A stretch of 64,000 nucleotides of DNA from Spartobacteria bacterium (GTDB lineage Bacteria; Verrucomicrobiota; Verrucomicrobiia; Chthoniobacterales; UBA10450), in assembly GCA_003167555.1 (NCBI GenBank), contig PMSN01000014.1, positions 124,001 through 188,000 of the forward strand. The letters run 5' to 3'. Below are positions 8,446 to 64,000 of this stretch, one piece after another. Each line of letters starts with the position of its first letter. Position 1 is the first letter of the stretch. Both the position numbers and the translations under genes were made by a program. The notes under the pieces were generated by a model. The model was given only the letters and a program-made list of their open reading frames with translations. It did no database searches and was not told where the DNA came from.

Positions 8446-8545
8446 GAGACAAATTAAGGTCGAACGACTTTCCCGCAACGCAGAATGCGCAACTTCGCGT
8501 GGCGCCTGCTGTTTCTCCAAAACAATCTATCATGTCGCCGGCAGT

Positions 8546-11254: not shown

Positions 11255-11338
11255 TGGTAGGGACGCCGCGCTGCGGCGTCCGCATCGGCAGGTGCACTAC
11301 GATTCGTGGCTCGGACGGCGCGGCGCGCCGTCCCTACC
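11255..11338. repeat. Intergenic inverted repeat, GGTAGGGACGCCGCGC type (copy 2)
   Basis: Second copy of the element at 7900-7988. The left arm TGGTAGGGACGCCGCGCTGC is identical, the right arm GCGCGCCGTCCCTACC nearly so, and the centre differs. It fills the space between the deoxyhypusine-synthase-like gene and hldD. Confidence 0.8.
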
Positions 11339-34739: not shown

Positions 34740-35303
34740 ATGCACAGCGTCCGAGTCGAGACGGTAAAGATTGAGGGCCAGGAAATGGACGCGCTGATGA
34801 AGCGCTTTGAACGGCCCCTTTTGCAATATGCGACGCGGATCCTCGGCGACAGCGACCGCGCCCGGGACGTGGTGCAGGAGACTTTTGTGAAACTGCAAAA
34901 TGAAAAACGAGCGGAACTCGACAGCGCACCGGCGAAGTGGCTCTTCACCGTTTGCCGCAACGGCGCCCTGAATATTTGCCGGAAAGAAAAGCGCATGACT
35001 TATCTCGACCAGGAACTTCTCGAAACGCGCGCGAGCGATCAGCCCGCGCCTTACGAGAAGCTCGAAGCAAAGGAGGCCACCGGATTTCTCCTTCGCATCC
35101 TCGGCACGCTCCCGCCGCGGCAGCAGGAAGTGCTGCAATTGAAATTTCAAAATGATCTCAGCTACCAGCAAATCAGCGAAATCACGCAGCTGTCGGTCAG
35201 TAACGTGGGCGTGCTCATTCACAACGCGCTTAAGACTCTGCGGCAACGTTACGCGCAAACCGCGAAGGATTTCCTGCCTTTCACACCTCGAATCGTCTCA
35301 TGA
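34740..35303 (+). CDS. ECF-type RNA polymerase sigma factor
   Basis: A 187-residue sigma-70 family protein. Region 2 has LLQYATRILGDSDRARDVVQETFVKL and WLFTVCRNGALNICRKEKR; region 4 has LGTLPPRQQEVLQLKFQNDLSYQQISEITQLSVSNVGVLIHNALKTLRQRY. The start might be 15 codons further on (MDALMKRF), where GGAA precedes an ATG. The stop overlaps the next gene in an ATGA arrangement (35300-35303), so the two are coupled. That partner starts with an anti-sigma-like cytosolic segment and a membrane helix, which suggests it restrains this sigma factor. Confidence 0.92.
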   Translation: MHSVRVETVKIEGQEMDALMKRFERPLLQYATRILGDSDRARDVVQETFVKLQNEKRAELDSAPAKWLFTVCRNGALNICRKEKRMTYLDQELLETRASDQPAPYEKLEAKEATGFLLRILGTLPPRQQEVLQLKFQNDLSYQQISEITQLSVSNVGVLIHNALKTLRQRYAQTAKDFLPFTPRIVS

Positions 35304-47494: not shown

Positions 47495-48229
47495 GTGTCC
47501 GGAAACAACTGCGCGGGTTTAGAAAACGCCTTTGTCACTACGCACTGGAGCGTAGTGTTGGCGGCACAAGAGCGATCTCCGGCAGCGGAAGCAGCCTTGG
47601 AAAAACTTTGCCGCACCTATTGGTGGCCGCTTTATGGATTTGTGAGGCGGCAAGGTAATAGTCCCGAGGAAGCGCAGGATCTGACGCAAGGTTTTTTCGC
47701 AATGCTGCTGGAGCGAAGAGATTTCGAGAGTGTCCGGCGCGAGAAAGGACGCTTGCGTTCCTATCTGCTTGTGTCGCTCAAGAATTTTCTGGCGAAAGCG
47801 CATCGCCGGGAGATGGCCGTGAAGCGAGGAGAAGGTCAATCGCTTGTTCCCCTCGACGAGCTGCTGGCGCGGGAGAGCGCCGACCTGGAGCCGGCGGACA
47901 CTCTGAGTGCCGACAAAATTTATGAGCGCCGCTGGGCTTTGACGTTGCTTGAACAAGTGCTGGCGCGTCTCGAGGACGACTATCGAGTTGCCGGTAACGT
48001 GCCTCTGTTCGAACAGCTCAAGGAATTGCTCGCCGATGAACCGGGCCGTCCGTCGCAGGCGGACATTGCCACTGGATTAGGAATGACGGAGAACGCGGTG
48101 AAGCAGGCGTTTCACCGCTTGCGCCAGCGTTACCGGGAGTTGTTGCATGAAGAAATTGCCCACACCGTCGCGGCGCCGGGCGATGTCGAGGACGAGCTGC
48201 GTCATTTCATTTCTGTGTTGCAAACGTAA
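47495..48229 (+). CDS. ECF-type RNA polymerase sigma factor, kinase-linked
   Basis: A 244-residue sigma factor. TTHWSVVLAAQERSPAAEAALEKLCRTYWWPLYGFVRRQGNSPEEAQDLTQGFFAMLLER is the region-2 signature of a large verrucomicrobial/planctomycete ECF group; AKAHRREMAVKRGEG follows. Region 4 is atypical: EDDYRVAGNVPLFEQLKELLADEPGRPSQADIATGLGMTENAVKQAFHRLRQRYRELL. A GTG start is used. The stop is 3 nt before the kinase gene, so the pair is translationally coupled. This parallels the sigma/kinase pair at 14497-17674 but the two sigma factors belong to visibly different subgroups. Confidence 0.92.
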   Translation: MSGNNCAGLENAFVTTHWSVVLAAQERSPAAEAALEKLCRTYWWPLYGFVRRQGNSPEEAQDLTQGFFAMLLERRDFESVRREKGRLRSYLLVSLKNFLAKAHRREMAVKRGEGQSLVPLDELLARESADLEPADTLSADKIYERRWALTLLEQVLARLEDDYRVAGNVPLFEQLKELLADEPGRPSQADIATGLGMTENAVKQAFHRLRQRYRELLHEEIAHTVAAPGDVEDELRHFISVLQT

Positions 48230-48232
48230 CCC

Positions 48233-51091
48233 ATGAAAGAATTTGGGGCAGTACAAGTCGAGACGACAGATCGACAGAGAACCGAGATGATAAACGTGGC
48301 CAGAGTTTGCGCAAAGTGCGGAGCGGCGGTCTTCCCGGACGCGCCACGAGGTTTTTGCAGCGTTTGTTTGTTCAGGACCGGCTTGGGCGAGTTCGGGGAG
48401 GAAAATGACGCGGCGCGTGAACCAGCCGCCACGCCAATGCAGATGGATTTCGGCGACTATGAGTTGCTCGAGGAAATCGGCCGCGGCGGACAGGGCGTCG
48501 TCTATCGCGCGCGGCAGAAAAGTCTCAATCGCACAGTCGCACTAAAAGTGATTGGTCTTGGTCGTTGGGCGAGCACGCCCCATTTGAAACGATTTCGTTA
48601 CGAAGCGGAGGCGGCGGCGAGTCTGGAGCATCCGCAAATCGTTCCGATCTACGAAATCGGCGAGCGCGACGGTTCCTGTTATTTTAGTATGAAATTCGTC
48701 GAAGGCGGTCAGCTGGACGAGGTCGTTAGGCGCGAGCGGATGTTAACCCGGCACACCGCGGAATTGCTGGTAAAGATTGCGCGCACGGTTCAGTTCGCCC
48801 ATGAGCGGGGAATTCTTCATCGCGACATCAAGCCGGGCAACATTTTGTTAGATCGACAAGGCGAACCGCATTTGACCGATTTCGGTTTGGCGCGCCTGAT
48901 TGAACAGGAAAGCACGGTCACAAACTCATTCGATGTCATGGGCACTCCGAGCTACATGGCGCCGGAGCAGGCCGCGGGTCACACGAAGGAGCTTACAGCT
49001 GCGGTCGATGTTTACGCGCTCGGCGCGGTCTTTTATCAGATGCTCACCGGCCAGCCGCCATTCGCAGGTGGCACGACCTACGAAACGATTCGATTAGTCA
49101 TCGAGACCGAGCCGCGGAATCCGCGGCTTTGGAATCCAAAAGTAGATGTCGATCTTGCGACGATCTGCCTGAAGTGCTTGGAGAAGGATCCGAAAAAGCG
49201 TTACGAAACGGCCGAAGCGCTCGCCCAGGATGTCGAGCGCTGGCTTCGTCATGAGCCCATTCGCGCCCGTCCCACCGGCATTTTCGCGCGCGGCCGTAAA
49301 TGGGTGCGGCGCAATCCAGCCGCCGCCATCTCAGCGGCCTCGCTGGCCGGTCTGGCGATTGCGGTGGGCGTCCTCATTTGGAGAAGCGACTTCATCCGCC
49401 CTTTGCCCTCCACTGGCATCGCCGTGTTGCCTTTCGAAAATCTGAGTGAAGACAAAGACAACGCCTACCTGGCCGATGGAATCCAGGGCGAGATTCTGAC
49501 GCGTTTATCGAAGATTGCTGACCTGAAAGTCATTTCGCGGACATCTACGCAAAATTACAAGAGCCGGCCGGAAAACCTGCGTGACATCGCTAGGCAACTT
49601 GGCGTCGCCCACATCCTGGAAGGAAGCGTGCAGAAGAGCGGCGAGGCCGTGCGCGTCAACGTGCAGCTGATCAAAGCGGCCAACGGTTCTCATCTTTGGG
49701 CCGACACCTATGACAGAAGACTAATTGACATCTTCACAGTCGAGACTGAGGTGGCCAGGGCCATCGCTGATCAGTTGCGGGCGAAGCTCACTGGTCAAGA
49801 AGAGCAAGTTATCGCGGACAAACCAACCGGCAACCCCGAGGCCCACGATGCCTACCTGCGCGGGCTGGCTTATAGTCTGAGACCTACATACGTACCGGCC
49901 AACGCCCTTGCTGCACAGAGATATCTCAGGGAAGCGGTGCGGTTGGACCCGAAGTTCGCCCTTAGCTGGGCGTTGCTGTCATACGTGGATGCGCGCGAAT
50001 ACATCACACGGAATCTGCAACCAACGCTTGCCCTCCGTGAGGAGACACGGCGGGCGGCTGAAACTGCGCTTACTCTTCAGCCGAACCTCGGCGAGGCGGT
50101 ACTCGCCAAAGGGTATTATCATTACGCCTGTCAAAAGGATTACAAGAGTGCCGAGCGTTACTATGAGCAAGCACGCCAGCTCCTGCCGAATAGCAGCCGG
50201 ATTCCTGAATTGCTGGCCTACGCCGCGCGGAGGAGAGGCCGGTGGGACCAGAGCGAGTCGTATTTCAACGAAGCCGAGCGGCTTGACCCGCGCAATGTTT
50301 ATCTGCTTACCCAGCACGCACAAACCCATATCTTACGCCGCCGTTTCCCTGAAGCGCTGCGAAAGCTTGAGCAGGTTCTCAACATTACACCGGACGATCC
50401 CGACACGCTTGCGATAATGGCGGGTATCGCACAAGCCGAGGGCGACCTGCCGCGGGCTTCGGCCCTCCTTGCTCCGATCCGCCTGGCGGTCGACGACCCC
50501 AGCGTTTTAAAGACACAAGTTTACCAGGCGATCCTGGAGCGCCACCCTGCACCGGTCATCGCTGCGTTAAAGGAAATATTGGTGAAGCCTGATTCCGCGT
50601 TGGGTTATTACAATGGTGAACGGCGCTTCTGGTTAGGCTGGGCGCAAGAAGTGGGCGGCGACCATGCCGGCGCCCAAGAAACGTGGCAACAGGCGCGCAG
50701 CGAACTGGAATCTTTCGTCGAGGAGCAGCCGGAAAATAATAGCCTGACTGAAGGTTTGGCCCTGACCAATATGTTTCTTGGGAACAAAGCCGCAGCGTTG
50801 TCTTGGGCCGAACGCGCGATCGCCGCGATCCCGATCGAGAAAGACGCGATGACTGGTCCTCGGGAGCTCGAGATTCTCGCCCGGGTAGCGGCGCAGGCCG
50901 GAGAGCCCGACCGCGCGATTGCCGCTTTACAGAAGCTGCTCTCGATCCCGTACAGTGGCGCCCTGGTTGAGAGCGTGCCGCTCACTCCTGCGCTGCTCCG
51001 CCTTGATCCAATGTTCGATCCGCTGCGGAATGACGCCAGATTCCAGAAACTCGTCGCGCCCAGCTCGCCGAAAGAAGCAGTAGATCGGTAG
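48233..51091 (+). CDS. Ser/Thr protein kinase with zinc ribbon, TolB-like and TPR regions
   Basis: A 952-residue membrane kinase. An N-terminal zinc ribbon (C26-x2-C29, C42-x2-C45) is followed by a Hanks kinase domain: IGRGGQGVVYRARQKSLNRTVALKVI, HRDIKPGNILLDRQG, LTDFGLARL, GTPSYMAPEQA and DVYALGAVFYQMLTGQPPF. A membrane helix (AAAISAASLAGLAIAVGVLIW, about 365-385) precedes a TolB/FlgO-like N-terminal fold (STGIAVLPFENLSEDKDNAYLADGIQGEILTRLSKIADLKVISRTS...GSVQKSGEAVRVNVQLI) and then TPRs to the end. The start could be 18 codons later (MINVARVCAKC). It lies 3 nt after the sigma gene and 125 nt before the beta-helix protein gene, suggesting one regulatory locus. Confidence 0.92.
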   Translation: MKEFGAVQVETTDRQRTEMINVARVCAKCGAAVFPDAPRGFCSVCLFRTGLGEFGEENDAAREPAATPMQMDFGDYELLEEIGRGGQGVVYRARQKSLNRTVALKVIGLGRWASTPHLKRFRYEAEAAASLEHPQIVPIYEIGERDGSCYFSMKFVEGGQLDEVVRRERMLTRHTAELLVKIARTVQFAHERGILHRDIKPGNILLDRQGEPHLTDFGLARLIEQESTVTNSFDVMGTPSYMAPEQAAGHTKELTAAVDVYALGAVFYQMLTGQPPFAGGTTYETIRLVIETEPRNPRLWNPKVDVDLATICLKCLEKDPKKRYETAEALAQDVERWLRHEPIRARPTGIFARGRKWVRRNPAAAISAASLAGLAIAVGVLIWRSDFIRPLPSTGIAVLPFENLSEDKDNAYLADGIQGEILTRLSKIADLKVISRTSTQNYKSRPENLRDIARQLGVAHILEGSVQKSGEAVRVNVQLIKAANGSHLWADTYDRRLIDIFTVETEVARAIADQLRAKLTGQEEQVIADKPTGNPEAHDAYLRGLAYSLRPTYVPANALAAQRYLREAVRLDPKFALSWALLSYVDAREYITRNLQPTLALREETRRAAETALTLQPNLGEAVLAKGYYHYACQKDYKSAERYYEQARQLLPNSSRIPELLAYAARRRGRWDQSESYFNEAERLDPRNVYLLTQHAQTHILRRRFPEALRKLEQVLNITPDDPDTLAIMAGIAQAEGDLPRASALLAPIRLAVDDPSVLKTQVYQAILERHPAPVIAALKEILVKPDSALGYYNGERRFWLGWAQEVGGDHAGAQETWQQARSELESFVEEQPENNSLTEGLALTNMFLGNKAAALSWAERAIAAIPIEKDAMTGPRELEILARVAAQAGEPDRAIAALQKLLSIPYSGALVESVPLTPALLRLDPMFDPLRNDARFQKLVAPSSPKEAVDR

Positions 51092-51216: not shown

Positions 51217-54200
51217 ATGGCCACAAAAGCACTCCGCCTTCACCGAAAAACTGAAACGAAACGGCCTGGTGAGATTCAACCGCAAGCGCGCCTTGCAAAA
51301 GGCATGCTTATCTTGGCCATCGCGGTGTTCAGTCTATCAATTGGACCGGGGGCTGCGCAAGCAGCGACGCGCACAGTCACGAGTCTAAATGATAGCGGAG
51401 GCGGCACATTGCGCGACACGCTTGCTGCTGCGGCGGCGGGAGACACGATTCAGTTCTCCGTCACCGGCCAAATCAAGCTGGACAGCTCGCTGACCATTAC
51501 CAAGAACGTTACGATCAGCGGTCCAGGACAAACCCACCTGACCGTGACACGGGATAGCGGCACCGTCATTCTTTTTGTCATCAATAGCGGCCTTACCGTG
51601 AGCATTTCAGATATCTCAATCACGAACGGACAGGGGGGCGATTTTCAGCCCGGGGGCATCCTAAATCATGGCAACCTGACGCTGGAGTCCTGTAGTTTCA
51701 GCGCGAATGTCGGTCAATATGCTGCCGGGGCGATTGACAGTGATGGTCCGCTGACTGCCACCGACTGCGTTTTCAGCAATAACAGTTTGGGCGCTATTAC
51801 CACCAGAAGCTCCGCGGCATTTACCTCCTGCACTTTCACGAACAACGGCACAGTTGGCGGCGCCATCGAAAACACAGCGACGGGGCAGTTAATGGTTAAT
51901 GGCTGCACTTTTAGCAATAACAGCGGCGGTCAAGGTGGAGCGATTGGCAACTTCGGCAACGGTCCGTCGTCAACTGTTGCGGTACAGAATAGTTTTTTCT
52001 ACGAAAACAGCTCTTATAATGTAGGCGGCGCGATCTGGAGCCAGACCGGTACGGTCACGATCGTCGGTTGTACCTTTGCCAAAAATACTGCCCAAGACAA
52101 CGGCGGCGCGGTTTATAATGATAGCGGATCTCTTACTGTGCGTAACTCTACCTTGGTCGGGAATAGTGCGGCCATTGGGGGTGGCATCTACAACCAGGGC
52201 AACGGTAATAATTATACGGGAAACGCCACCGTTACCGCGAGTACGCTATCCGACAATAGCGCCCCCAATGGCGGAGGTATCTACAACCTGGGGACAAATA
52301 ACGGCCGGGCTCTTTTGATCCTTGAAGATACGATCCTCTACAGCGCGAACACTACGCCCGGCGCTAATCTCATCAGTACTGGCCCGGGCGCGAGCGTCAC
52401 GTCGCATGGTTACAACTTAAGTAGTGACAATGCCAGCGGTTTCCTCACCGCTGCCGGTGACCAGATCAATATCGATCCCAAGCTCGGGCCGCTGCAAGAC
52501 AACGGCGGCCCAACGCAAACGATGGCTTTGCTTCCCGGCAGTCCGGCCTGGGATAAAGGCAAGAGCTTTAGCCTGACCGAGGATCAACGTGGATCGCCGC
52601 GGCCAGTTGATATTCCCAGCATTGCAAACGCGGGTGGCGGCGACGGCAGCGATATCGGCGCGGTCGAAATGGATGCCATCCAGACTGGACCCGCCTTTGT
52701 AGTCACAACCACGGACGATCACGATGACGGAGCCTGTAGCTTCGCTGATTGCGCGCTCCGCGAAGCCATTGATGCGGCCAACGCGGCCTCTGGATCTACC
52801 GTTAGCTTCAAGAGCCAGGTGACGGGCGTTATCACTTTACAGGCGACTCTAGGCGGCCTCACGATCAGCAATTCCGTTACCATCGTTGGACCTGGTGCGC
52901 GGACGCTGGCTGTCAGCGGAAATGGCGCAGTCCGCGTTTTCAATTTCACCAGCGGAACCAGCGTGATTTCCGGCCTCACGATTCAAGGCGGGTCTGCCGT
53001 GGGAGCCACCGGGCAAGCAGGTACGGGTGGCGGAATTTCCAATTCGGCATCCCTGACTGTTAACGACTGCATGTTCATCGAAAATAGCGCGACCGGTGGC
53101 AGCAGTATTAGCGAGGGCAACTCTGGCGGGAAAGGGCAGGGAGGCGCGATCTATAGCGCCGGCATTCTTACGCTGAATCGCTGTACGTTTTCTGAAAACA
53201 CCGCTACCGGGGGTAACCCCGGCTTCGCCATTACCAAAGCGCCCGGCGGCAACGGCGGCGCGGGCCAGGGCGGTGCGGTCTTCAACGAGGCAGCCCATTC
53301 TCTGACGATTAGCAGTTGTTCCTTCTTCGCGAACATCGCTCGCGGCGGCCACGGCGGTAACGGCAGCACCGGTGGGAATGGCGGCGCCGGAAATGGAGGA
53401 GCTATCTGCAATGCGGGACAGATGACTACGACCGCGTGCACGATAAGCAGCAACGCCGGCGGTAACAGCAATGGAGGCACCGGCCCCGGCGGCAACGGTT
53501 CGCCCGGTCCAGCCAGTGGCGGGATCACAAACATTAGCGGAGGCACCGCGATCGTGAGGGACAGCATCAGCGCGAACAACACCGCGAACGGCGGCGCTGG
53601 CGCGGATGTTGACGGCGCATTCACCTCTGGCGGTTACAACTTGTTAGGTACCGCCGATCATAGCACCGGTTTTACCGCCACCGGAGACATCAAAGGCACG
53701 GATGCCTCGGTCTTAAACGCCGGCGTGCTCGGACCACCATCGAACAATGGCGGACTGACCGACACCTTCAACCTGACGTCAAACAGCCCTGCAATCGACG
53801 CCGGAAAGTCGTTCGGACCGGCGACCGATCAGCGCGGACTGCCCAGGATACGGGACAATCCAAGTATAGCTAATGCAGTTGGAGGCGACGGCAGCGATAT
53901 CGGAGCATTGGAAGTTCAAAATATTGGAGCAAGTCCGACCCCGACACCTACTTCAACACCGATATCTACGCCAACACCTACCCCGACGCCGACAGCTACG
54001 CCAATACCGACGGCTACACCTACACCTACACCTACCGCGGCGCCTACACCTACACCTACCGCGACGCCAAGCGCTACACCAATACCAACGCCAACACCTA
54101 CTCCAACGCCAGCCCAGCCCACCGTGCTGGCCAACATCTCGACCCGATTGCTGGTGGGAACAGGAGACAATGTCTTAATCGGCGGCTTCATCATCACCGG

Positions 54201-54876
54201 GACCGATCCGAAGAAGGTATTAATCCGCGCGATAGGACCTTCGCTGCCTCTGGCCGGAGTGCTGGCCGATCCTACTCTTGAGCTCTATCAAGGCACCACG
54301 CTCCTGGAATCGAACGACAATTGGATGGATAGCCCGAACAAGCAAGCCATCATCGATAGCACCATCCCGCCCAGCAACCCGCTGGAATCAGCCATCGTAA
54401 GGAGTGTGCCGCCCGGCAACTACACCGCGATTGAGCGTGGGGTAAATAACGGGACTGGGATAGGAGTAGTAGAAGCGTACGACCTGGATACCTCCGCTAA
54501 CTCAAAGCTGGCAAACATTTCCACCCGTGGCTTGGTCCAGACAGGAGACAACGTCTTGTTCGCAGGTACGATTGTAGTAGGACAGGCCTCGCAAAAGGTA
54601 ATTATCCGCGCGCTGGGTCCTTCCACCGGCGTCCCCGGGGCGCTGGCCGATCCCACGCTGGAACTGCACGACGGAAACGGAGCGCTGCTGGAAACGAACG
54701 ATAACTGGGTGGATAGCCCGAACAAACAAGCGATCATCGACAGCACCATCCCGCCCCCGAATAACGCGGAATCGGCCATCGTGCGGATATTAACTCCAGG
54801 CAACTACACCGCCATTGTGCGCGGTGTGAATGACTCGACCGGCATCGCGGTCGTGGAAGTTTACGCGCTGAACTAG
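51217..54876 (+). CDS. Secreted CSLREA/choice-of-anchor Q beta-helix protein with tandem C-terminal module
   Basis: A protein of up to 1219 residues. The signal peptide is [20 protein letters not shown], so the effective start may be 51304; an ATG at 51217 adds 29 polar residues and neither has a strong Shine-Dalgarno. Two beta-helix regions consist of units such as [22 protein letters not shown] and [16 protein letters not shown], rich in Gly/Asn/Ser. Each closes with a choice-of-anchor Q pattern ([21 protein letters not shown]...DQRGSPRP...GSDIGAVE and a second ending GSDIGALE). A CSLREA-like block ([20 protein letters not shown]) starts the second. A PTPTP linker precedes the two GDNVLIGGF modules. 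Likely a cell-surface adhesin-like protein. Confidence 0.88.
53931..54116 (+). repeat. In-frame CCTACACC/CCAACGCC hexamer tract (Pro-Thr linker)
   Basis: About 60 codons of alternating Pro and Thr/Ala/Ser, built from 6-bp units (CCTACA, CCAACG, CCGACG). Unit gain or loss keeps frame. A shorter version occurs at 57778-57846 in the next kelch gene; the gene at 58616 has none. Confidence 0.85.
54119..54876 (+). repeat. Tandem C-terminal module DNA, copy 1 of 3
   Basis: About 760 bp encoding [20 protein letters not shown] to VVEVYALN-stop. Copies 2 (57850-58608) and 3 (61107-61867) share long identical stretches, for example GGGACTGGGATAGGAGTAGT and onward through the GAAGCGTACGACCTGGATACC region. 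Two half-modules of about 125 residues each, both with I(R/G)A(I/L)GPS and LESNDNW/LETNDNW. Confidence 0.95.
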
Positions 54877-54883
54877 CCATAAA

Positions 54884-54991
54884 ATGAAGCACTCCGCGTT
54901 CATTTCATTTGTGAGCGCAACATCTAAGGCTGCGCTTGTCCTGGTTTCGGTTGCCGTGCTGCTGGCGGGCAACGTTTTGCCACGCCGATGA
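54884..54991 (+). CDS. Stranded signal-peptide leader (35 aa) overlapping the next start
   Basis: A 35-codon frame starting MKHSAFISFVSATSKAALVL, with a hydrophobic core VSVAVLLAG, ends with TGA overlapping the ATG of the following kelch gene (ATGA at 54988-54991). It is clearly homologous to the signal peptide that starts the kelch gene at 58616 (MKHAAFFSFVRATSKAALFA), and both are preceded by the same TAGCCATAAA. The mature protein it once led has been replaced by a gene with its own, different signal peptide. It might still be translated and couple the two genes. Confidence 0.65.
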   Translation: MKHSAFISFVSATSKAALVLVSVAVLLAGNVLPRR

Positions 54992-57900
54992 AAACGCTCT
55001 GCCTTCGTCTTTCGATTCTCGCGGCGATCCATTGGTGCAGTCTCTTTGTGGCGCTGGGTGCGCCGTTTACTTTTAGCAGCACGGGCAGCCTCGCGACCGG
55101 CCGCGATAATGATACGACCACCTTGTTGCAAAACGGAAAGGTATTGGTGGCAGGCGGATATAACGGCAACCCGCTGGCGAGCGCCCAGCATTACGATCCG
55201 GCCACCGGTATTTGGGCTTCGACGGGCAGTCTCGCAACCGCGCGCCAGAACCACACTGCGACTTTGCTACCAAATGGCAAGGTGCTCGTCACAGGAGGAC
55301 GAGGGACCGGCAGTGTCTCTCTTACTAGCGCGGAACTCTACGACCCGATAGGCGGGACTTGGACGGCGACCGGCAGCCTGACGAACGCACGGTTTAACCA
55401 TACTGCAACCTTGCTGTCCAACGGTAAGGTCCTGGTTGCCGGGGGATTTAATAGCACCAGCGGCGAGATGGTCAGTGCGGAACTCTACGATCCGGCGAGC
55501 GGCACCTGGAAGGCAACCGGCAATCTTGTAACCGCACGCAGTCTTCACACGGCGACGCTGCTTTACAACCAACAGGTCCTGGTCGCGGGAGGACAAGGCG
55601 CCAGTAACAACCCCCTGAATGTTGCGGAACTCTACGACCCGATAGGCGGGACTTGGACGGCGACTAGCACTCTCGTGACCGCACGTTATAGTCAGACCGC
55701 GACCTTGCTGCCCAGTGGCAAGGTGCTGGTCGCTGGAGGACAACAAAACGGCGCTGTGAGGACCGCGGAAATCTACGATCCGGCGGGACGAACATGGACG
55801 GCGACCGGCATCCTTGTAACTGCGCGTTATTTCCACACGGCGGCGCTGTTGCCTAACGGTAAGGTCCTGGTTGCCGGGGGATTTAATAGCACCAGCGGCG
55901 AGATGGTCAGTGCGGAGCTTTACGATCCGGCGGCCGGGACCTGGGCAGCCACCGGCACTCTCGCTGCCGCGCGTTCTAATCAGACAGCGACGTTGCTGCC
56001 CAGCGGCAACGTGCTTGTCGCGGCAGGTTTTAATGGCGCTAACACTGGCGCCGCCAAGTATCTCACGAGCGCGGAGCTCTACGATTCGGCGAGCGGGAGT
56101 TGGGATACGACGACCCTCCAACCCCTAATCGTGGCAAGCGAGAAGCATACGGCGACCTTGCTATCTAGTGGCAAGGTGCTGGTCGCGGGAGGAAGATCCT
56201 TCGGCAACTATCCGGCGAGCACGGAGCTCTTCGATCCGGCGAACGGCACCTGGACGGCGACCGGCGATCTCTACTCCAGCTTCGGGCGCGCTAGTCATAC
56301 GGCAACCTTGTTGCCGAGCGGCAAGGTGCTCATCGCGGGAGGAGATAAAGGTGGCGCTCTCACGAGCGCGCAGCTCTACGATCCGGCAAGCGGGACGTGG
56401 AAACCCACGAGCGACCTCGGCAAAGCCCGCTATTTTCACACGGCGACGTTATTGACGAACGGTACGGTGCTGGTCGCGGGAGGATTAGGCAGCGGCTCCG
56501 CCGGTTATCTCACGAGCGCGGAGCTCTACGATCCGGCGAGCGGGGCCTGGACTGCCACCGGCAGCCTCAACGTCGCACGCGGGAATCACACGGCGACGTT
56601 GCTCCCCAACGGCACGGTGCTCGTCGCGGGAGGGCAGGACGGCACCAACCAAGACGTCGTTCCCAGGAGCGCGGAGCTCTACGATCCGGCGAGCGGGACC
56701 TGGACGATAGCCACCCGCGGCTTCAACAGCGACTACGTTTCTCACACGGCGACGTTGCTGCCAAACGGCAAGGTGCTCGTCGCAGGAGGACTGTACCAAG
56801 GCACCATAAGCCCTGCTGCGGAGCTCTATGATCCGGCGAGCGGGACCTTGATGGGCACCGGCAACCTCAACACCGCTCGCGGTAGTCATACGGCGACGTT
56901 ACTACCTAACGGCAAAGTGCTCGTGGCGGGTGGAATTGGCAGCGGCTTCAACGTCTACCTCACGAGCGCGGAGCTCTACGATCCGGCGAGCGGGAGTTGG
57001 ACGCCGACCGGCAACCTCCACACTACACGCTATTCTCACACGGCCACGCTCTTGCCTAACGGCAAGGTGCTGGCCGGAGGAGGTAATGACGGCAGCAATG
57101 ATACCAAGAGCACGGAGCTCTATGATGTCGGCCTTGGATTCCTGAGCGCATGGCAGCCTCGCATCGGGTCAGCACCCTCAGCCCTCCCATCCGGCAGTCC
57201 CCTCACACTCACCGGTTTCTTCCAAGGCGTCTCGCAAGCTTCGGGCGGAAACACTCAAGATTCGTCCAGTAACTACCCGATCGTGCAACTGCGCAGCCTC
57301 GAGAGCAGTCAGGTCGCGTTCCTTCCAACGGCTGGCTGGCAGGGCTCAGTCTTCACCTCGATCCCGGTGAGCGGCTTTTCTGTCGGCCCGGCGCTGGTGA
57401 CTGTCTTTATCAACGGCATCCCGAGTGATGCCAAGTATCTGTTAGTCGCACAGACGACCCCAGCATTCGGCACCCAAGCCTCGGGGACGACCCCGGTGGG
57501 CGGCAGCATTTCGGATTCTGCGGTCCTTGACAATGGCGCGACGTTGACCGGGACGATCACCTTCAAGTTGTTTGGACCTAATGACGCAACCTGCGGCGCC
57601 GCCGCCGTTTTCACTTCTACGAAGAGTGTCTCCGGCAATGGGAGCTATACTTCGGATTCGTTCACTCCGACTGCTGCTGGCACTTACCGGTGGGTGGCAA
57701 CCTATAGCGGAGATGCGAACAATAACCCCGTAACGGGCGCATGCAATGATGCGAATGAATCAGTGGTTGTGACACCGGCGCCTACACCAACGCCAACGCC
57801 AACACCAACAGCGACGCCAACACCTACACCTACTCCAACGCCAGGCCAGCCCACAGTACTGGCCAATATCTCCACCCGGTTACTGGTGGGAACAGGCGAC

Positions 57901-58608
57901 AATGTCTTAATTGGCGGCTTTATCGTAAGTGGCACGCAGACGAAGAAGGTATTAATCCGCGCGATAGGACCTTCGCTGCCGCTCGGCGGAGTGCTGGCCG
58001 ATCCTACCCTTGAGCTCTATCAGGGCACCACGCTCCTGGAATCGAACGACAACTGGATGGATAGCGCGAACAAGCAAGCCATCATCGACAGCGGCGCCGC
58101 GCCGCTGAACAACCTGGAATCGGCGATCGTGAGGAGTGTGGCGCCCGGCAACTACACCGCGATTGAGCGTGGAGTAAACAACGGGACTGGGATAGGAGTA
58201 GTAGAAGCGTACGACCTGGATACCTCCGCTAACTCAAAGCTGGCTAACATTTCCACGCGCGGCTTGGTCCAGACAGGAGACAACGTCTTGTTCGCGGGCA
58301 CGATCGTAGTCGGACAGGCCTCGCAAAAAGTAATTATCCGCGCGCTTGGCCCTTCGACCGGCGTCCCCGGGGCGATGGCCGATCCCACGTTGGAACTGCA
58401 CGACGGAAGCGGAACGCTGCTGGAAACGAATGATAACTGGGTGGATAGCCCGAACAAACAAGCGATCATCGACAGCACCATCCCGCCCCCGAATAACCTG
58501 GAATCGGCCATCGTGCGGATATTAACTCCAGGCAACTACACCGCGATCGTCCGCGGCGTGAATAACTCTACCGGCATCGCGGTGGTGGAAGTTTACGCGC
58601 TGAACTAG
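54988..58608 (+). CDS. Secreted kelch-array protein 1 with E-set, Ig-like and tandem C-terminal modules
   Basis: A 1206-residue protein. The signal peptide (MKTLCLRLSILAAIHWCSLFVALG) is followed by about 14 kelch units of some 50 residues with the pattern H-T-A-T-L-L-P-N-G-K-V-L-V-A-G-G...A-E-L-Y-D-P-A-S-G-T-W. These would form two seven-bladed propellers. A beta-sandwich as found after galactose-oxidase propellers follows (PSALPSGSPLTLTGFF...GPALVTVFINGIPS), then an Ig-like domain (GSISDSAVLDNGATLTGTITFKLFGPND), a PTPTP linker and the two C-terminal modules. No catalytic residues recognisable. A 62-bp block is repeated exactly inside the array. Probably surface-bound ligand-binding protein. 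Confidence 0.87.
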   Translation: MKTLCLRLSILAAIHWCSLFVALGAPFTFSSTGSLATGRDNDTTTLLQNGKVLVAGGYNGNPLASAQHYDPATGIWASTGSLATARQNHTATLLPNGKVLVTGGRGTGSVSLTSAELYDPIGGTWTATGSLTNARFNHTATLLSNGKVLVAGGFNSTSGEMVSAELYDPASGTWKATGNLVTARSLHTATLLYNQQVLVAGGQGASNNPLNVAELYDPIGGTWTATSTLVTARYSQTATLLPSGKVLVAGGQQNGAVRTAEIYDPAGRTWTATGILVTARYFHTAALLPNGKVLVAGGFNSTSGEMVSAELYDPAAGTWAATGTLAAARSNQTATLLPSGNVLVAAGFNGANTGAAKYLTSAELYDSASGSWDTTTLQPLIVASEKHTATLLSSGKVLVAGGRSFGNYPASTELFDPANGTWTATGDLYSSFGRASHTATLLPSGKVLIAGGDKGGALTSAQLYDPASGTWKPTSDLGKARYFHTATLLTNGTVLVAGGLGSGSAGYLTSAELYDPASGAWTATGSLNVARGNHTATLLPNGTVLVAGGQDGTNQDVVPRSAELYDPASGTWTIATRGFNSDYVSHTATLLPNGKVLVAGGLYQGTISPAAELYDPASGTLMGTGNLNTARGSHTATLLPNGKVLVAGGIGSGFNVYLTSAELYDPASGSWTPTGNLHTTRYSHTATLLPNGKVLAGGGNDGSNDTKSTELYDVGLGFLSAWQPRIGSAPSALPSGSPLTLTGFFQGVSQASGGNTQDSSSNYPIVQLRSLESSQVAFLPTAGWQGSVFTSIPVSGFSVGPALVTVFINGIPSDAKYLLVAQTTPAFGTQASGTTPVGGSISDSAVLDNGATLTGTITFKLFGPNDATCGAAAVFTSTKSVSGNGSYTSDSFTPTAAGTYRWVATYSGDANNNPVTGACNDANESVVVTPAPTPTPTPTPTATPTPTPTPTPGQPTVLANISTRLLVGTGDNVLIGGFIVSGTQTKKVLIRAIGPSLPLGGVLADPTLELYQGTTLLESNDNWMDSANKQAIIDSGAAPLNNLESAIVRSVAPGNYTAIERGVNNGTGIGVVEAYDLDTSANSKLANISTRGLVQTGDNVLFAGTIVVGQASQKVIIRALGPSTGVPGAMADPTLELHDGSGTLLETNDNWVDSPNKQAIIDSTIPPPNNLESAIVRILTPGNYTAIVRGVNNSTGIAVVEVYALN
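57850..58608 (+). repeat. Tandem C-terminal module DNA, copy 2 of 3
   Basis: Second copy of the block at 54119-54876. It encodes [19 protein letters not shown] and DSGAAPLNNLESAIV where copy 1 has [19 protein letters not shown] and [15 protein letters not shown]. In these two positions it agrees with copy 3. Confidence 0.95.
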
Positions 58609-58615
58609 CCATAAA

Positions 58616-61600
58616 ATGAAGCACGCCGCGTTCTTTTCATTTGTGAGGGCAACATCCAAGGCTGCGCTCTTCGCCGCCGCTGCCACGCTCTTGTACGCGC
58701 CTTCAGCTGCCGGGGCGCCGTTTACTTTTAGTAACACGGGCAACCTCGCGCACGCGCGCGATAATCACTCGGCGACATTGCTCTCCAACGGCAAGGTGCT
58801 GATCGCAGGAGGATATAACGGCAACCCGCTGGCGACCGCGGAGCTCTACGATCCGGCGAGCGGGACTTGGGCGGCGACCGGAAACCTGGTAGCCGCACGC
58901 TATAATCACACCGCGACATTGTTGCCCAATGGCAAGGTGCTGGTCGCAGGAGGGCAGATCAACGGCGGATCGCTGGCGACCGCGGAGCTGTACGATCCGG
59001 CGAGCGGGACTTGGGCGGCGACCGGCAGTCTCGCGAACGCACGCTATGGTCAGACCGCGACCTTGCTCTCCAATGGCAAGGTGCTGGTCGCAGGAGGGTT
59101 CAATCCCAGCAGCAGCTATCTGGCGAGCGCGGAACTTTACGATCCAGCGAGCGGCAACTGGACGGGAACCGGCAGTCTCGTCACTACACGCTATCTTCAC
59201 ACGGCAACGTTGCTGCCTAACGGCAACGTGCTGGTCGCGGGAGGACAGGGCAGCGCCAACGGCAGCACTCTGAAGAGCGCGGAGCTCTACAATCCCGCGA
59301 ATGCGACCTGGTCGACAACTAACAACCTGGTGAGCGCGCGCTATAGCCACACGGCGACGTTGCTGCCCAATGGCAAGGTGTTGGTCGCAGGCGGGCAGAA
59401 TCCGAGCGCTTTGGCGAGCGCGGAACTCTACGATCCGGCGAACGCGACTTGGTCGACGACTGGCAACCTGGCGAGCGCACGCTACACTCACACGGCGACG
59501 TTGCTGCCTAACGGCAAGGTGCTGGTCGCCGGAGGGTTTAACACCGGCTACCTAACGAGTGCGGAACTCTACGATCCGGCTGGCGGGACGTGGTCGACGA
59601 CCGGGACCCTCGCTGCCGCGCGTTCCAATCAGACGGCGACGTTGCTGCCGAGCGGCAGCGTGTTGGTCGCGGCCGGCTTCAATGGCGCTAACACCGGCAC
59701 CGCCAAATATCTGGCGAGCGCGGAGCTGTATGATCCAGCGAGTGGCAACTGGACGGGAACCGGCAGTCTCGGCGCCTCACGAGCAGCTCACACGGCGACG
59801 TTTTTGCCCAACGGCAAGGTGCTGGTCGCGGGAGGTGTCGAGACCAACGCAAGCGGCGGTGGTCTGAAGAGCGCGGAGCTTTACGATCCCGCGAGCGGGA
59901 ATTGGGCGGCGACCGGCAGTCTCGCGACCGGACGTGCCGGTCATACCGCCACCTTGCTGTCCAACGGCAAGGTGCTGGTCGCAGGCGCCGGGTTTAATAG
60001 TCTGGCGAGCGCGGAACTCTACGATCCGGCGAGCGGTACTTGGACGGCGACCGGCAGTCTCGCGAACGGACGTTCCAGCCACACCGCGACCTTGCTACCC
60101 AATGGGAAAGTTCTGGTCGCAGGCGGGTCGCAGCCGTCGGCAAACCACGGTGATCCCGAGGCTCTGGAGAGTGCGGAGCTCTACGATCCGGCGAGCGGCG
60201 TGTGGTCGGAGACGGGGAGCCTCGCGGCGGCACGTTATTCTCACACCGCGACGTTACTACCCAATGGCAAGGTCCTGGTCGCAGGAGGGGTCAACGCTAA
60301 CGGCTTTCCGGCGAGTGCGGAACTGTACAACCCGGCAACCGGAAGTTGGACGCCGGCCGACAGCCTCAAGACGCCACGCAGCAATGCCACGGCAACATTG
60401 CTGCCTAACGGCAAGGTGTTAGTTGCAGGAGGTTATGATACCAACAACAATCACATAGGCGTCGCGGAACTCTACGATCCAGCGAGCGACGCGTGGACGG
60501 CGACCGGCAGTCTGATCAAGCCACGCGCATACCACACGGCAACGTTATTGCCCGATGGCAAGGTTCTGGTCGCGGGAGGACAAAGCGATGACTCCTTTGA
60601 ACCGAGTGCCGAGCTCTACGATCCGGCGAGTCGGATCTGGACGCAGACCGGTAGCCTTACCGTGGCACGCGACGTCCATACGGCAACGCTACTAGCCAAC
60701 GGCAGGGTGCTGGCCGTCGGGGGAGAAGGTTTCCCCGCCCAAACTTTGACAAGCGCGGAGCTTTACGACGAAGGGCTTGGATTTATACCTGTTTGGCAGC
60801 CACAAATCACCACGGCTCCTTCCACCTTGACGCTGGGTGGCAGCCTCGCACTTACCGGCACGCGCTTCCAAGGCATCTCGCCAGCCTCCGGCGGCAACTT
60901 CCAGGACTCATCGACTAACTATCCGCTCGTGCAATTGCGCAACGTCGATAGCAGCCAGGTCACCTTCCTGCCCGTGAGTCCGGCAACTGGCTGGTCGAAT
61001 ACCGCGTTTACCTCAACACCTGTGACTGGCTTTCCGGCCGGCCCCGCGCTCGTGACCGTCTTTACCAATGGCATCCCGAGCAACGCGCGGTATTTGGTGG
61101 TTGTCCCGCCCACCGTGCTGGCCAACATCTCGACGCGGTTGCTGGTGGGAACAGGCGATAATGTTCTCATTGGCGGATTCATCGTCACCGGCACGCAGAC
61201 GAAGAAGGTATTAATCCGCGCGATAGGACCTTCGCTGCCGCTCGGCGGAGTGCTGGCCGATCCTATCCTTGAGCTCTATCAAGGCAGCACGCTCCTGGAA
61301 TCGAACGACAACTGGATGGATAGCGCGAACAAGCAAGCCATCATCGACAGCGGCGCCGCGCCGCTGAACAACCTGGAATCGGCGATCGTGAGAAGTGTGC
61401 CGCCCGGCAACTACACCGCGATTGAGCGAGGAGTAAATAACGGGACTGGGATAGGAGTAGTAGAAGCGTACGACCTGGATACCTCGGCTAATTCGAAGCT
61501 GGCGAACATTTCTACCCGCGGTTTGGTCCAGACAGGAGACAATGTCTTGTTCGCGGGCACGATCGTAGTCGGACAGGCTTCGCAAAAAGTAATTATCCGC

Positions 61601-61867
61601 GCGCTCGGCCCTTCCACCGGCGTCCCCGGCGCGATGGCCGATCCCACTCTGGAGTTGCACGACGGAAACGGAGCGTTGCTGGAAGCGAATGATAACTGGG
61701 TCGATAGCCCGAACAAACAAGCGATCATCGACAGCACCATCCCGCCCCCGAATAACGCGGAATCGGCCATCGTGCGGATATTAACTCCAGGCAACTACAC
61801 CGCCATTGTGCGCGGCGCGAATAACTCTATCGGCATCGCGGTCGTGGAAGTTTACGCGTTGAACTAG
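58616..61867 (+). CDS. Secreted kelch-array protein 2 with tandem C-terminal modules
   Basis: A 1083-residue paralogue of the preceding protein. The signal peptide MKHAAFFSFVRATSKAALFA then GAPFTFSNTGNLAHARDNHSATLL is followed by about 14 kelch units and the same E-set-like sandwich (PSTLTLGGSLALTGTRFQGI...GPALVTVFTNGIPSNARYLVV). It joins directly to the C-terminal modules without the Ig-like domain and PTPTP linker of kelch protein 1. Unit 7 of the array (LVAAGFNGANTGTAKYLASAELYD) corresponds to the same unit in the paralogue, so the array was duplicated as a block. The gene lies 7 nt after the previous stop, indicating co-transcription. Confidence 0.88.
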   Translation: MKHAAFFSFVRATSKAALFAAAATLLYAPSAAGAPFTFSNTGNLAHARDNHSATLLSNGKVLIAGGYNGNPLATAELYDPASGTWAATGNLVAARYNHTATLLPNGKVLVAGGQINGGSLATAELYDPASGTWAATGSLANARYGQTATLLSNGKVLVAGGFNPSSSYLASAELYDPASGNWTGTGSLVTTRYLHTATLLPNGNVLVAGGQGSANGSTLKSAELYNPANATWSTTNNLVSARYSHTATLLPNGKVLVAGGQNPSALASAELYDPANATWSTTGNLASARYTHTATLLPNGKVLVAGGFNTGYLTSAELYDPAGGTWSTTGTLAAARSNQTATLLPSGSVLVAAGFNGANTGTAKYLASAELYDPASGNWTGTGSLGASRAAHTATFLPNGKVLVAGGVETNASGGGLKSAELYDPASGNWAATGSLATGRAGHTATLLSNGKVLVAGAGFNSLASAELYDPASGTWTATGSLANGRSSHTATLLPNGKVLVAGGSQPSANHGDPEALESAELYDPASGVWSETGSLAAARYSHTATLLPNGKVLVAGGVNANGFPASAELYNPATGSWTPADSLKTPRSNATATLLPNGKVLVAGGYDTNNNHIGVAELYDPASDAWTATGSLIKPRAYHTATLLPDGKVLVAGGQSDDSFEPSAELYDPASRIWTQTGSLTVARDVHTATLLANGRVLAVGGEGFPAQTLTSAELYDEGLGFIPVWQPQITTAPSTLTLGGSLALTGTRFQGISPASGGNFQDSSTNYPLVQLRNVDSSQVTFLPVSPATGWSNTAFTSTPVTGFPAGPALVTVFTNGIPSNARYLVVVPPTVLANISTRLLVGTGDNVLIGGFIVTGTQTKKVLIRAIGPSLPLGGVLADPILELYQGSTLLESNDNWMDSANKQAIIDSGAAPLNNLESAIVRSVPPGNYTAIERGVNNGTGIGVVEAYDLDTSANSKLANISTRGLVQTGDNVLFAGTIVVGQASQKVIIRALGPSTGVPGAMADPTLELHDGNGALLEANDNWVDSPNKQAIIDSTIPPPNNAESAIVRILTPGNYTAIVRGANNSIGIAVVEVYALN
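61107..61867 (+). repeat. Tandem C-terminal module DNA, copy 3 of 3
   Basis: Third copy, encoding the end of kelch protein 2. It matches copy 2 in the first half ([19 protein letters not shown]) and copy 1 in parts of the second half ([21 protein letters not shown]), a mosaic pattern expected from gene conversion. Confidence 0.95.
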
Positions 61868-61939: not shown

Positions 61940-64000
61940 ATGAAAACCACTGGTCTCCGCCTCTTAATTCTCACCGGGATCCATTGCTGGGGTCTCTTTA
62001 CGGCGATGGGTGCGCCGTTTACTTTCACCAGCACAGGTAATCTGGCGCAGGGACGCACTCTTCACACGAGTACCTTGTTGCAAAACGGGAAGGTGTTGGT
62101 CGCCGGAGGAGCTAACCCGGGCATCGTGGGCACCGCGGAACTCTACGACCCGTTGATCGGGACCTGGTCGGCGACGGGCAATCTGATAACTCCGCGCGAG
62201 GCTCACACCGCGACGATGTTGCGCAACGGCGCGGTGCTCGTCACCGGAGGGGTTGGCGCCAGTAATACCGTTCTCACCACCGCGGAACTCTACGATCCAG
62301 CGACGGGGAAATGGAAAGCGACCGGCAATCTCGCGAGCGCACGCTATGCCCATACCGCCACCTTGCTCCCTAACGGCAAGGTGCTGGTCGCAGGAGGATA
62401 CGCCACCAACGGCTTTCAAGGCACCGCGGAACTCTACGATCCGGCGACCGGGACTTGGACGGCAACCGGCAGCCTCATCACGGCGCGGGATAATCACACG
62501 GCGACCCTGCTCTCTAGTGGCAAGGTGCTCGTCGCGGGAGGACAAGGCAACGTTACGGGCGGCACTTTGAACACGGCGGAGCTTTATGATCCGGCGAGCG
62601 GGATGTGGGCAGTTACCGGGAGTCTTGGCAGCGCCCGTTGTTTTCACACGGCGACGTTGCTTTCCAGCGGCAAGGTGCTCGTCGCAGCAGGACAAAACGG
62701 CGGCGCCGTGGGATCAGCGGAGCTTTATAATCCGGCGAGCGGGACATGGAATACGACCCCCAATCCGGTCAATTCCCGTTACAGTCACACGGCAACCTTG
62801 TTGCCTAATGGGATGGTGCTGGTGGCGGGAGGAACTGACGGCACGAATTCTTTAGCCAGCGCGGAGCTTTACAGTCCGGGCCAAGGCGCCAACGGCGCCT
62901 GGACCGCAACCGCCAACCTGGTGATCCCCCGTTCTAATCAGACCGCGACCCTGCTGCCTACTGGCAGCATACTCTTCGCGGCTGGGTTCGACGGTTTTCA
63001 AAAAATTCAGAGCGCCAAATATCTGGCCAGCGCCGAGCTGTACGATCCTGCGAGTAGCGGGGGCTGGGGGAGCCCGCCGGTGATGGCAACACCACGCGAA
63101 GAGCACACCGCAACGATGCTGGCCAATGGCCAGCTGCTGGTCGCGGGCGGGCTGAACGGCAGCGGCGCGCTGGCGAGCGGGGAGCTCTTCGATGTGGTAA
63201 AAGAGCAATGGACGGCCACAGGCAACCTCAACACCGCGCGCTATGGTCACACGGCGACGTTACTACCCAATGGACAGGTCCTGGTCGCAGCGGGAAGTGA
63301 CAGCGGTGTCAATGCTCTCGCGAGCGCGGAACTGTATGACCCGGCAAGCGGGAAATGGACGGCCACGGCGGGCAATCTCAACACCGCGCGCGCTGAGCAT
63401 ACGGCGACTTTGCTGCCCAACGGTCAGGTGCTCGTCGCAGCAGGATCTAATAGCAGTCACCAATTTTCCACGAGCGCGGAACTGTATAACCCGGCGAGTG
63501 GAACGTGGTCGGCAACCGGCAGCTTAGCCACCGCCCGCGGGTTGCATACGGCCACTTTGCTACCCAATGGCAAGGTACTGGTTACAGGAGGATTTGACAT
63601 CAATTTCAATGTTTCCGCGAGCGCGGAACTGTATGACCCGGCAAGCGGGAAATGGACGGCCACGAACAACCTCAATACCGCGCGCCGAAATCACACGGCG
63701 ACGCTGCTCTCCAACGGAAAGGTGTTAATCGCGGGAGGGTCTGGAACCAACGACAATTTCGGTCAACTGGCGAGTGCGGAGCTGTACGATCCAGCGAGCG
63801 GCACGTGGACGGTAACCGGCAGTCTCGCCACCGCCCGCGACTTCGCAACGGCTACACTACTTCCCAACGGGAAAGTGCTGATCGCATGCGGGCTAGGAAA
63901 CAATACTGGCGCTCTTGCGAGTGCGGAGACATACGACCCGGGAAGCGGTAAATGGACGTCCGCGGGCAACCTCACCGTTGCGCGCTCTGAGCACACGGCG
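61940..64000 (+). CDS. Secreted kelch-array protein 3 (3' end outside window)
   Basis: 687 codons are open to the window edge. The signal peptide MKTTGLRLLILTGIHCWGLF then TAMGAPFTFTSTGNLAQGRT resembles that of kelch protein 1 (MKTLCLRLSILAAIHWCSLF) more than that of protein 2. About 13 kelch units are visible with the same HTATLLPNGKVLVAGG...AELYDPASGTW pattern. Units 6-8 are irregular (AELYSPGQGANGAW, FAAGFDGFQKIQSAKYLASAELYD, GELFDVVKEQW). A 72-nt intergenic gap to protein 2 lacks the CCATAAA spacer seen before the other genes. C-terminal modules are expected but not in view. Confidence 0.87.
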   Translation, partial: MKTTGLRLLILTGIHCWGLFTAMGAPFTFTSTGNLAQGRTLHTSTLLQNGKVLVAGGANPGIVGTAELYDPLIGTWSATGNLITPREAHTATMLRNGAVLVTGGVGASNTVLTTAELYDPATGKWKATGNLASARYAHTATLLPNGKVLVAGGYATNGFQGTAELYDPATGTWTATGSLITARDNHTATLLSSGKVLVAGGQGNVTGGTLNTAELYDPASGMWAVTGSLGSARCFHTATLLSSGKVLVAAGQNGGAVGSAELYNPASGTWNTTPNPVNSRYSHTATLLPNGMVLVAGGTDGTNSLASAELYSPGQGANGAWTATANLVIPRSNQTATLLPTGSILFAAGFDGFQKIQSAKYLASAELYDPASSGGWGSPPVMATPREEHTATMLANGQLLVAGGLNGSGALASGELFDVVKEQWTATGNLNTARYGHTATLLPNGQVLVAAGSDSGVNALASAELYDPASGKWTATAGNLNTARAEHTATLLPNGQVLVAAGSNSSHQFSTSAELYNPASGTWSATGSLATARGLHTATLLPNGKVLVTGGFDINFNVSASAELYDPASGKWTATNNLNTARRNHTATLLSNGKVLIAGGSGTNDNFGQLASAELYDPASGTWTVTGSLATARDFATATLLPNGKVLIACGLGNNTGALASAETYDPGSGKWTSAGNLTVARSEHTA

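Follow-up and report, generated by a model that had tools for sequence, protein, structure and literature searches.

A 35-codon leader frame as the probable deletion scar of a delta-60 beta-propeller gene in a tandem array of secreted-protein genes

Gene relics formed by deletion in tandem arrays combine a 5′ end without a body, intact paralogous neighbours and an intact counterpart in sister genomes. The locus described here, part of a 64,000-nucleotide stretch of Spartobacteria DNA (the window), shares these three properties. Unlike the truncated pseudogenes among such relics, the remnant consists of just the leader, is still open and ends exactly on the next start codon. The secreted beta-propeller genes of the delta-60 repeat (TIGR02608) or DUF5122 (PF17164) type have leader DNA that resembles this locus up to base 54970, but the body is missing here. 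A literature search found nothing on the delta-60 repeat in Verrucomicrobia, on DUF5122 in "Verrucomicrobi", or on signal-peptide gene remnants among tandem paralogs.

The arrangement of the remnant also recalls two described cases of translational influence between adjacent frames. According to the accessible part of one report, overlaps of -4 (ATGA) are the commonest, tightly coupled arrangement of neighbouring genes, and a distance of about 20 nt almost abolishes coupling in the six pairs tested (PMC10666635). The geometry at our locus is the same, but both partners are genes in that report, whereas the upstream partner here is a probable relic. The axe-txe minigene, as portrayed in the accessible part of its source (PMC8708949), is likewise a short frame directly before a gene and able to affect translation. 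It comprises two codons and was tested by mutation, whereas the frame at 54884 is known here from sequence alone.

Setting of the 35-codon frame

The features of the locus are collected in Table 1. The 35-aa frame encodes a signal-peptide-like sequence, and 7 bases separate its ATG from the stop of the preceding gene, which ends at 54876. The frame closes with a TGA (54989-54991) that overlaps the start codon of the following gene, with ATGA at 54988-54991. An earlier note on this DNA had described the frame, the overlap of its stop with the next ATG and the different leader of the next gene (MKTLCLRLSILAAIHW), and all of these were confirmed.

Table 1. Features of the locus, numbered as in the window; positions with the prefix L004 are given under that name
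Feature	Position	Strand	Basis or remark
Sigma-70-like factor gene, left anchor of locus	47495..48229	+	Pfam Sigma70_r2, below gathering score (22.1 vs 24 bits)
Ser/Thr kinase gene with TPRs, left anchor of locus	48233..51091	+	Pfam Pkinase
CSLREA / choice-of-anchor-Q secreted protein gene; C-terminal module and stop just 5′ of the remnant	51217..54876	+	NCBIfam TIGR04214, NF041518
Near-repeat, copy 1: C-terminal module, TAGCCATAAA spacer and first ~53 leader bases	54140..54936	+	Ungapped identity scan; other copy about 57873-58668
Probable relic leader frame of a delta-60 gene, 35 aa, ATG to TGA	54884..54991	+	Reads MKHSAFISFVSATSKAALVLVSVAVLLAGNVLPRR
Segment homologous to delta-60 gene leaders	54884..54970	+	29 codons, ends ..CTGGCGGGC; DNA alignments to delta-60 leaders finish at query base 107 = 54970
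Junction bases, matching neither side	54971..54984	+	14 bases between the two alignment sets
Kelch-repeat secreted protein gene, 1206 aa, MKT leader MKTLCLRLSILAAIHW; start overlaps stop of the 35-aa frame	54988..58608	+	Pfam Kelch_4/Kelch_1
Kelch gene with the same leader prefix (MKHAAFFSFVRATSKAAL) and a different h-region	58616..61867	+	Pfam and ungapped identity scan
C-terminal module copies	54140-54876, 57873-58608, 61132-61867; L004:1444-2178, L004:4731-5471

The gene at 61940 also encodes a kelch protein by Pfam, and no Pfam family was assigned to the 51217 protein. The N-terminal extension of the latter (51217-51300) corresponds to a separate frame before its G003 homologue (G003 frame at 8506). 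As judged from these sequences, the true start of the 51217 gene may be internal, the extension being split off in G003.

The resemblance between the leaders at 54884 and 58616, which had been remarked on in the earlier note together with their common spacer TAGCCATAAA, exceeds chance. Their DNA is 95% identical over 73 bases, spacer included. When the 35-aa peptide was searched against its own genome, it was recovered at its own position, partly at the 58616 start (E = 2.0e-4, 61% over residues 1-28) and at one further place at chance level (E 1.16). This similarity ends at about leader base 53 and forms the end of a near-repeat of about 740-800 bp and ~91% identity, which starts in the C-terminal module of the preceding gene; module and spacer together are 91% identical over 742 bases between the two copies. 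The spacer, which stands before both leaders, is thus part of a duplicated tract and not an independent signal, and a regulatory meaning for it was rejected. Beyond base ~53, the leader matches those of delta-60 genes and not that of 58616.

Origin of the leader and the sister loci

In a peptide search of 39 relatives, matches were obtained in five: the genome itself, two of the same genus (G002 and G003) and two of the same order, the latter at E 0.5-0.8. All seven genus matches outside the own genome start long frames, six of which encode delta-60 proteins (with leaders like ..SFMRATSKATQKTALLLFSVAVLLAGGAAAVRGQSALDGFDPNAD) and one a kelch protein. A leader model built from seven such leaders and run on 26,063 frames found the orphan leader at E 9.6e-6. 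Twenty-seven distinct frames scored better, including 26 that begin delta-60 proteins (seven of them training members) and one that begins another protein in the G005 array; the higher scores of the delta-60 frames arise partly by construction, as delta-60 starts share with the model the motif SALDGFDP, which the orphan cannot. In local alignments, the leader tail matched all six delta-60 leaders tested (scores 40-54, against a best of 24-32 in 500 shuffles), and it matched neither the 58616 leader (score 16, best of 500 shuffles 24) nor the G003 kelch leader (score 15, best of 500 shuffles 27). Among the matches listed, the delta-60 start in the own genome (C10) carries another leader, and the peptide search described above gave no intact gene with the full 54884 leader at a second place in this genome.

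The breakpoint was mapped by aligning the DNA of 54864-55065 to eight genus genomes. Eight alignments to leaders of the delta-60 type all terminate at the same base, 54970 (GCGGGC); seven of these leaders belong to delta-60 genes and the eighth (G006:C16) to a gene with a different body. The delta-60 gene G002:C7 yields a ninth alignment, which falls 5 bases short of this point. On the other side, the alignment with the MKT kelch gene of G003 begins at 54985. The 27-base pattern across the left breakpoint (54961-54987) has a single occurrence in the eight genus genomes with up to 3 mismatches allowed, and it had no match in a wider collection of genome contigs, from which the own genome is possibly absent.

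The anchor formed by the sigma factor and kinase genes, together with the array behind it, is common to three genomes: that of the window, G003 (palsa_1413) and G005 (palsa_1414). Identity to the window is 98% for the sigma factor and 96% for the kinase in G003, and 93% and 92%, respectively, in G005. Both sister arrays include a complete delta-60 gene, encoding 1279 aa in G003 (with Pfam DUF5122 at 394 bits) and 1261 aa in G005. The intact gene with this type of leader, for which the earlier note had proposed a search in sister strains, is therefore present in the same array. The order in G003 is a kelch gene, the delta-60 gene (leader MKTTSKARNKAALLFFSVALLLAGG) and, after 24 bases, the MKT kelch gene, to which the first 45 bases of the 54988 gene are identical at 44 positions. 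Between the GCGGGC of the leader and the following ATG lie 3792 bases in G003 that the present genome lacks, and no delta-60 body remains behind the 54884 leader. A gene of the same G003 array encodes a protein that shares 87% identity over 880 aa with the body of the 51217 protein and only 50% with its C-terminal module. Behind the more distant anchor of G001 (73%), the array stretch is without a delta-60 gene by motif count, and behind that of G007 (58%) no array begins within the first 20 kb.

The 35-aa frame is best explained, with a probability of roughly 0.8, as the surviving 5′ end of a delta-60/DUF5122 beta-propeller gene, its signal-peptide leader, whose body has been deleted. The delta-60 gene would once have been a member of this tandem array of secreted-protein genes, and a segment of ~3.8 kb, from just after the leader (54970) to just before the ATG at 54988, would have been deleted in this lineage. 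The leftover frame would then end by happenstance on the TGA within the ATGAAA of the MKT kelch gene. We infer the direction of the change (loss rather than gain), a single deletion event and the lack of function of the remnant. In an rpoB tree of the seven genus genomes in which a match was obtained, which leaves out G001, the own genome branches between the G003 and G005 clades; since the delta-60 gene is present in both G003 and G005, loss in the present lineage is the simplest account. Moreover, the MKT kelch gene lies directly downstream of an intact delta-60 gene in G003, which argues that the body was deleted and not replaced. The chimeric kelch start at G003:C2:38813 and an MKT-like start in G005:C39 play no part in the evidence for the deletion. 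The identity of the sigma-kinase anchor (47495-51091) to G003 is 96.8% at the DNA level, yet that of rpoB is only 90.3%; judging from these sequences, the locus may have been transferred between species, a possibility that weakens the parsimony argument for loss.

Other observations stand against parts of this account. Kelch genes, too, can carry the leader prefix (58616 and G003:C2:38813), a delta-60-like h-region is found on another protein in G005, and G006:C16 joins a delta-60 N-terminus to another body; leaders are therefore not tied to one kind of body, and the body lost here was not necessarily of the delta-60 type. The 14 junction bases that match neither side speak against the deletion account, and the junction was read from the assembled sequence. 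As proposed in the earlier note, the frame appears to be a leader that has lost the rest of its gene, left as a scar of recombination. Two further proposals of that note, namely that the lost gene was a kelch paralogue of the 58616 type and that the following gene had replaced it, were not supported: the h-region is of the delta-60 (DUF5122) type, and the G003 MKT kelch gene already follows an intact delta-60 gene.

Competing explanations

An unlikely elaboration is that the relic is translated and has been exapted as a coupling peptide, kept because its ATGA overlap would feed ribosomes to 54988 after the loss of the old upstream neighbour. The overlap itself, the mere 7 bases between the preceding stop and the ATG of the frame, and the rank of -4 overlaps as the commonest, tightly coupled arrangement (PMC10666635, accessible part) are in its favour; inspection by eye revealed no SD-like motif at the start of either frame, which in the case of 54988 also favours coupling. 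The overlap, however, has about a 1-in-3 chance of arising, since the next gene starts with ATGAAA and ATGA is thus expected in one of three frames. The arrangement is further confined to this genome among the eight of the genus, and the two substitutions found in the orphan prefix alone (A to S, R to S) both alter the protein, in what is a very small sample. RNA folding of 54870-55030 is likewise unremarkable (z -1.31). A chance gain of coupling is possible, because the -4 overlap is the arrangement in which coupling works in the accessible part of the same report; if translated, the relic would at most pass ribosomes to 54988 by termination-reinitiation.

Still less probable is a replacement, in which the original occupant was a kelch gene of the 58616 type and recombination inserted the MKT kelch gene immediately after that gene's leader. 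The leader prefix, the spacer and the preceding module are indeed ~91-95% identical to the copy before 58616. The h-region, however, is that of delta-60 leaders and not that of 58616, as the tail alignments above indicate, and derivation of the entire leader from a kelch paralogue was rejected on this ground; the position of the MKT gene downstream of the delta-60 gene in G003 also counts against replacement.

An assembly artefact in a repeat-rich array is very improbable. Near-identical C-terminal modules of ~740 bases recur along the array and could suggest one, but the junction between the leader and the MKT gene lies outside these repeats and would not be produced by a jump from one of them to another; its sequence is unique among the eight genus genomes.

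Least probable of all is a real, conserved gene for a small secreted peptide: the 35-codon frame is intact and has a signal-peptide-like sequence, but conservation of the frame by itself in many genomes was looked for and no free-standing homologue was found in the 39 relatives or in 83 family genomes, and the candidate was rejected on these searches. Any match at E <= 1 was obtained in six of the 83 family genomes, those outside the genus being just E 0.47-0.75 and falling in frames of 79-235 codons. Leftover signal peptides such as 54884-54991 call for caution against annotation as small secreted proteins. With the deletion reading, the frame would be a small evolutionary scar of gene loss, located by reference to the sister genomes, instead of a new kind of gene.

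Modular organisation of the secreted-protein arrays

A C-terminal module of ~255 aa is common to the kelch, CSLREA and delta-60 proteins. The 39 modules examined group mainly by array and genome and not by body type; the five in the present array share about 93-96% identity with the most similar module of the array, irrespective of whether the body is of the kelch type. In G003, one module type is found in the delta-60 gene, in the kelch gene before it and in two 354-aa proteins, and the MKT kelch gene has another.

Leaders and bodies are also combined in different ways. The leader of the 54988 gene is closest to that of the G003 MKT kelch gene and its body is different (62% over 1238 aa), whereas the body closest to the G003 MKT kelch gene is that of the gene at 61940 (84% over 864 aa). 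In a few cases, the G005 array protein and G006:C16, a leader stands on a body of another type; in the latter (35132-35212), a delta-60 leader with QSALDGFDP is continued in frame by an unrelated body, providing a second detached delta-60 start. A scan of 10 array stretches revealed no second relic of the 54884 kind. Most other matches in that scan were discounted because they came from one query that reads the C-terminal module out of frame; weak matches in G001 at 16919 (E 2e-4) and in G003 at 11280 (E 0.001) were discounted too, the last being an out-of-frame reading of the delta-60 leader itself.

The grouping of modules by array, together with the leaders that cross body types, suggests an exchange of bodies between two handles. 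We tentatively propose, as a possibility that we still consider somewhat doubtful, that tandem arrays of large secreted proteins (kelch, delta-60 and CSLREA) may exchange bodies between the leader as the 5′ handle and the ~255-aa C-terminal module as the 3′ handle, the relic being one footprint of this process. The junction at 54970-54985 would then reflect a turnover of beta-propeller genes in which the leader is conserved, the C-terminal module is homogenised and the body between them is lost or swapped. If true, the secreted repertoire of these Spartobacteria-titled soil MAGs would undergo a fast, modular turnover, with C-terminal modules homogenised within each array.

A separate observation concerns the kelch gene G003:C2:38813, whose leader seems to have taken up an insertion of some 85 bases that may be a dispersed repeat.
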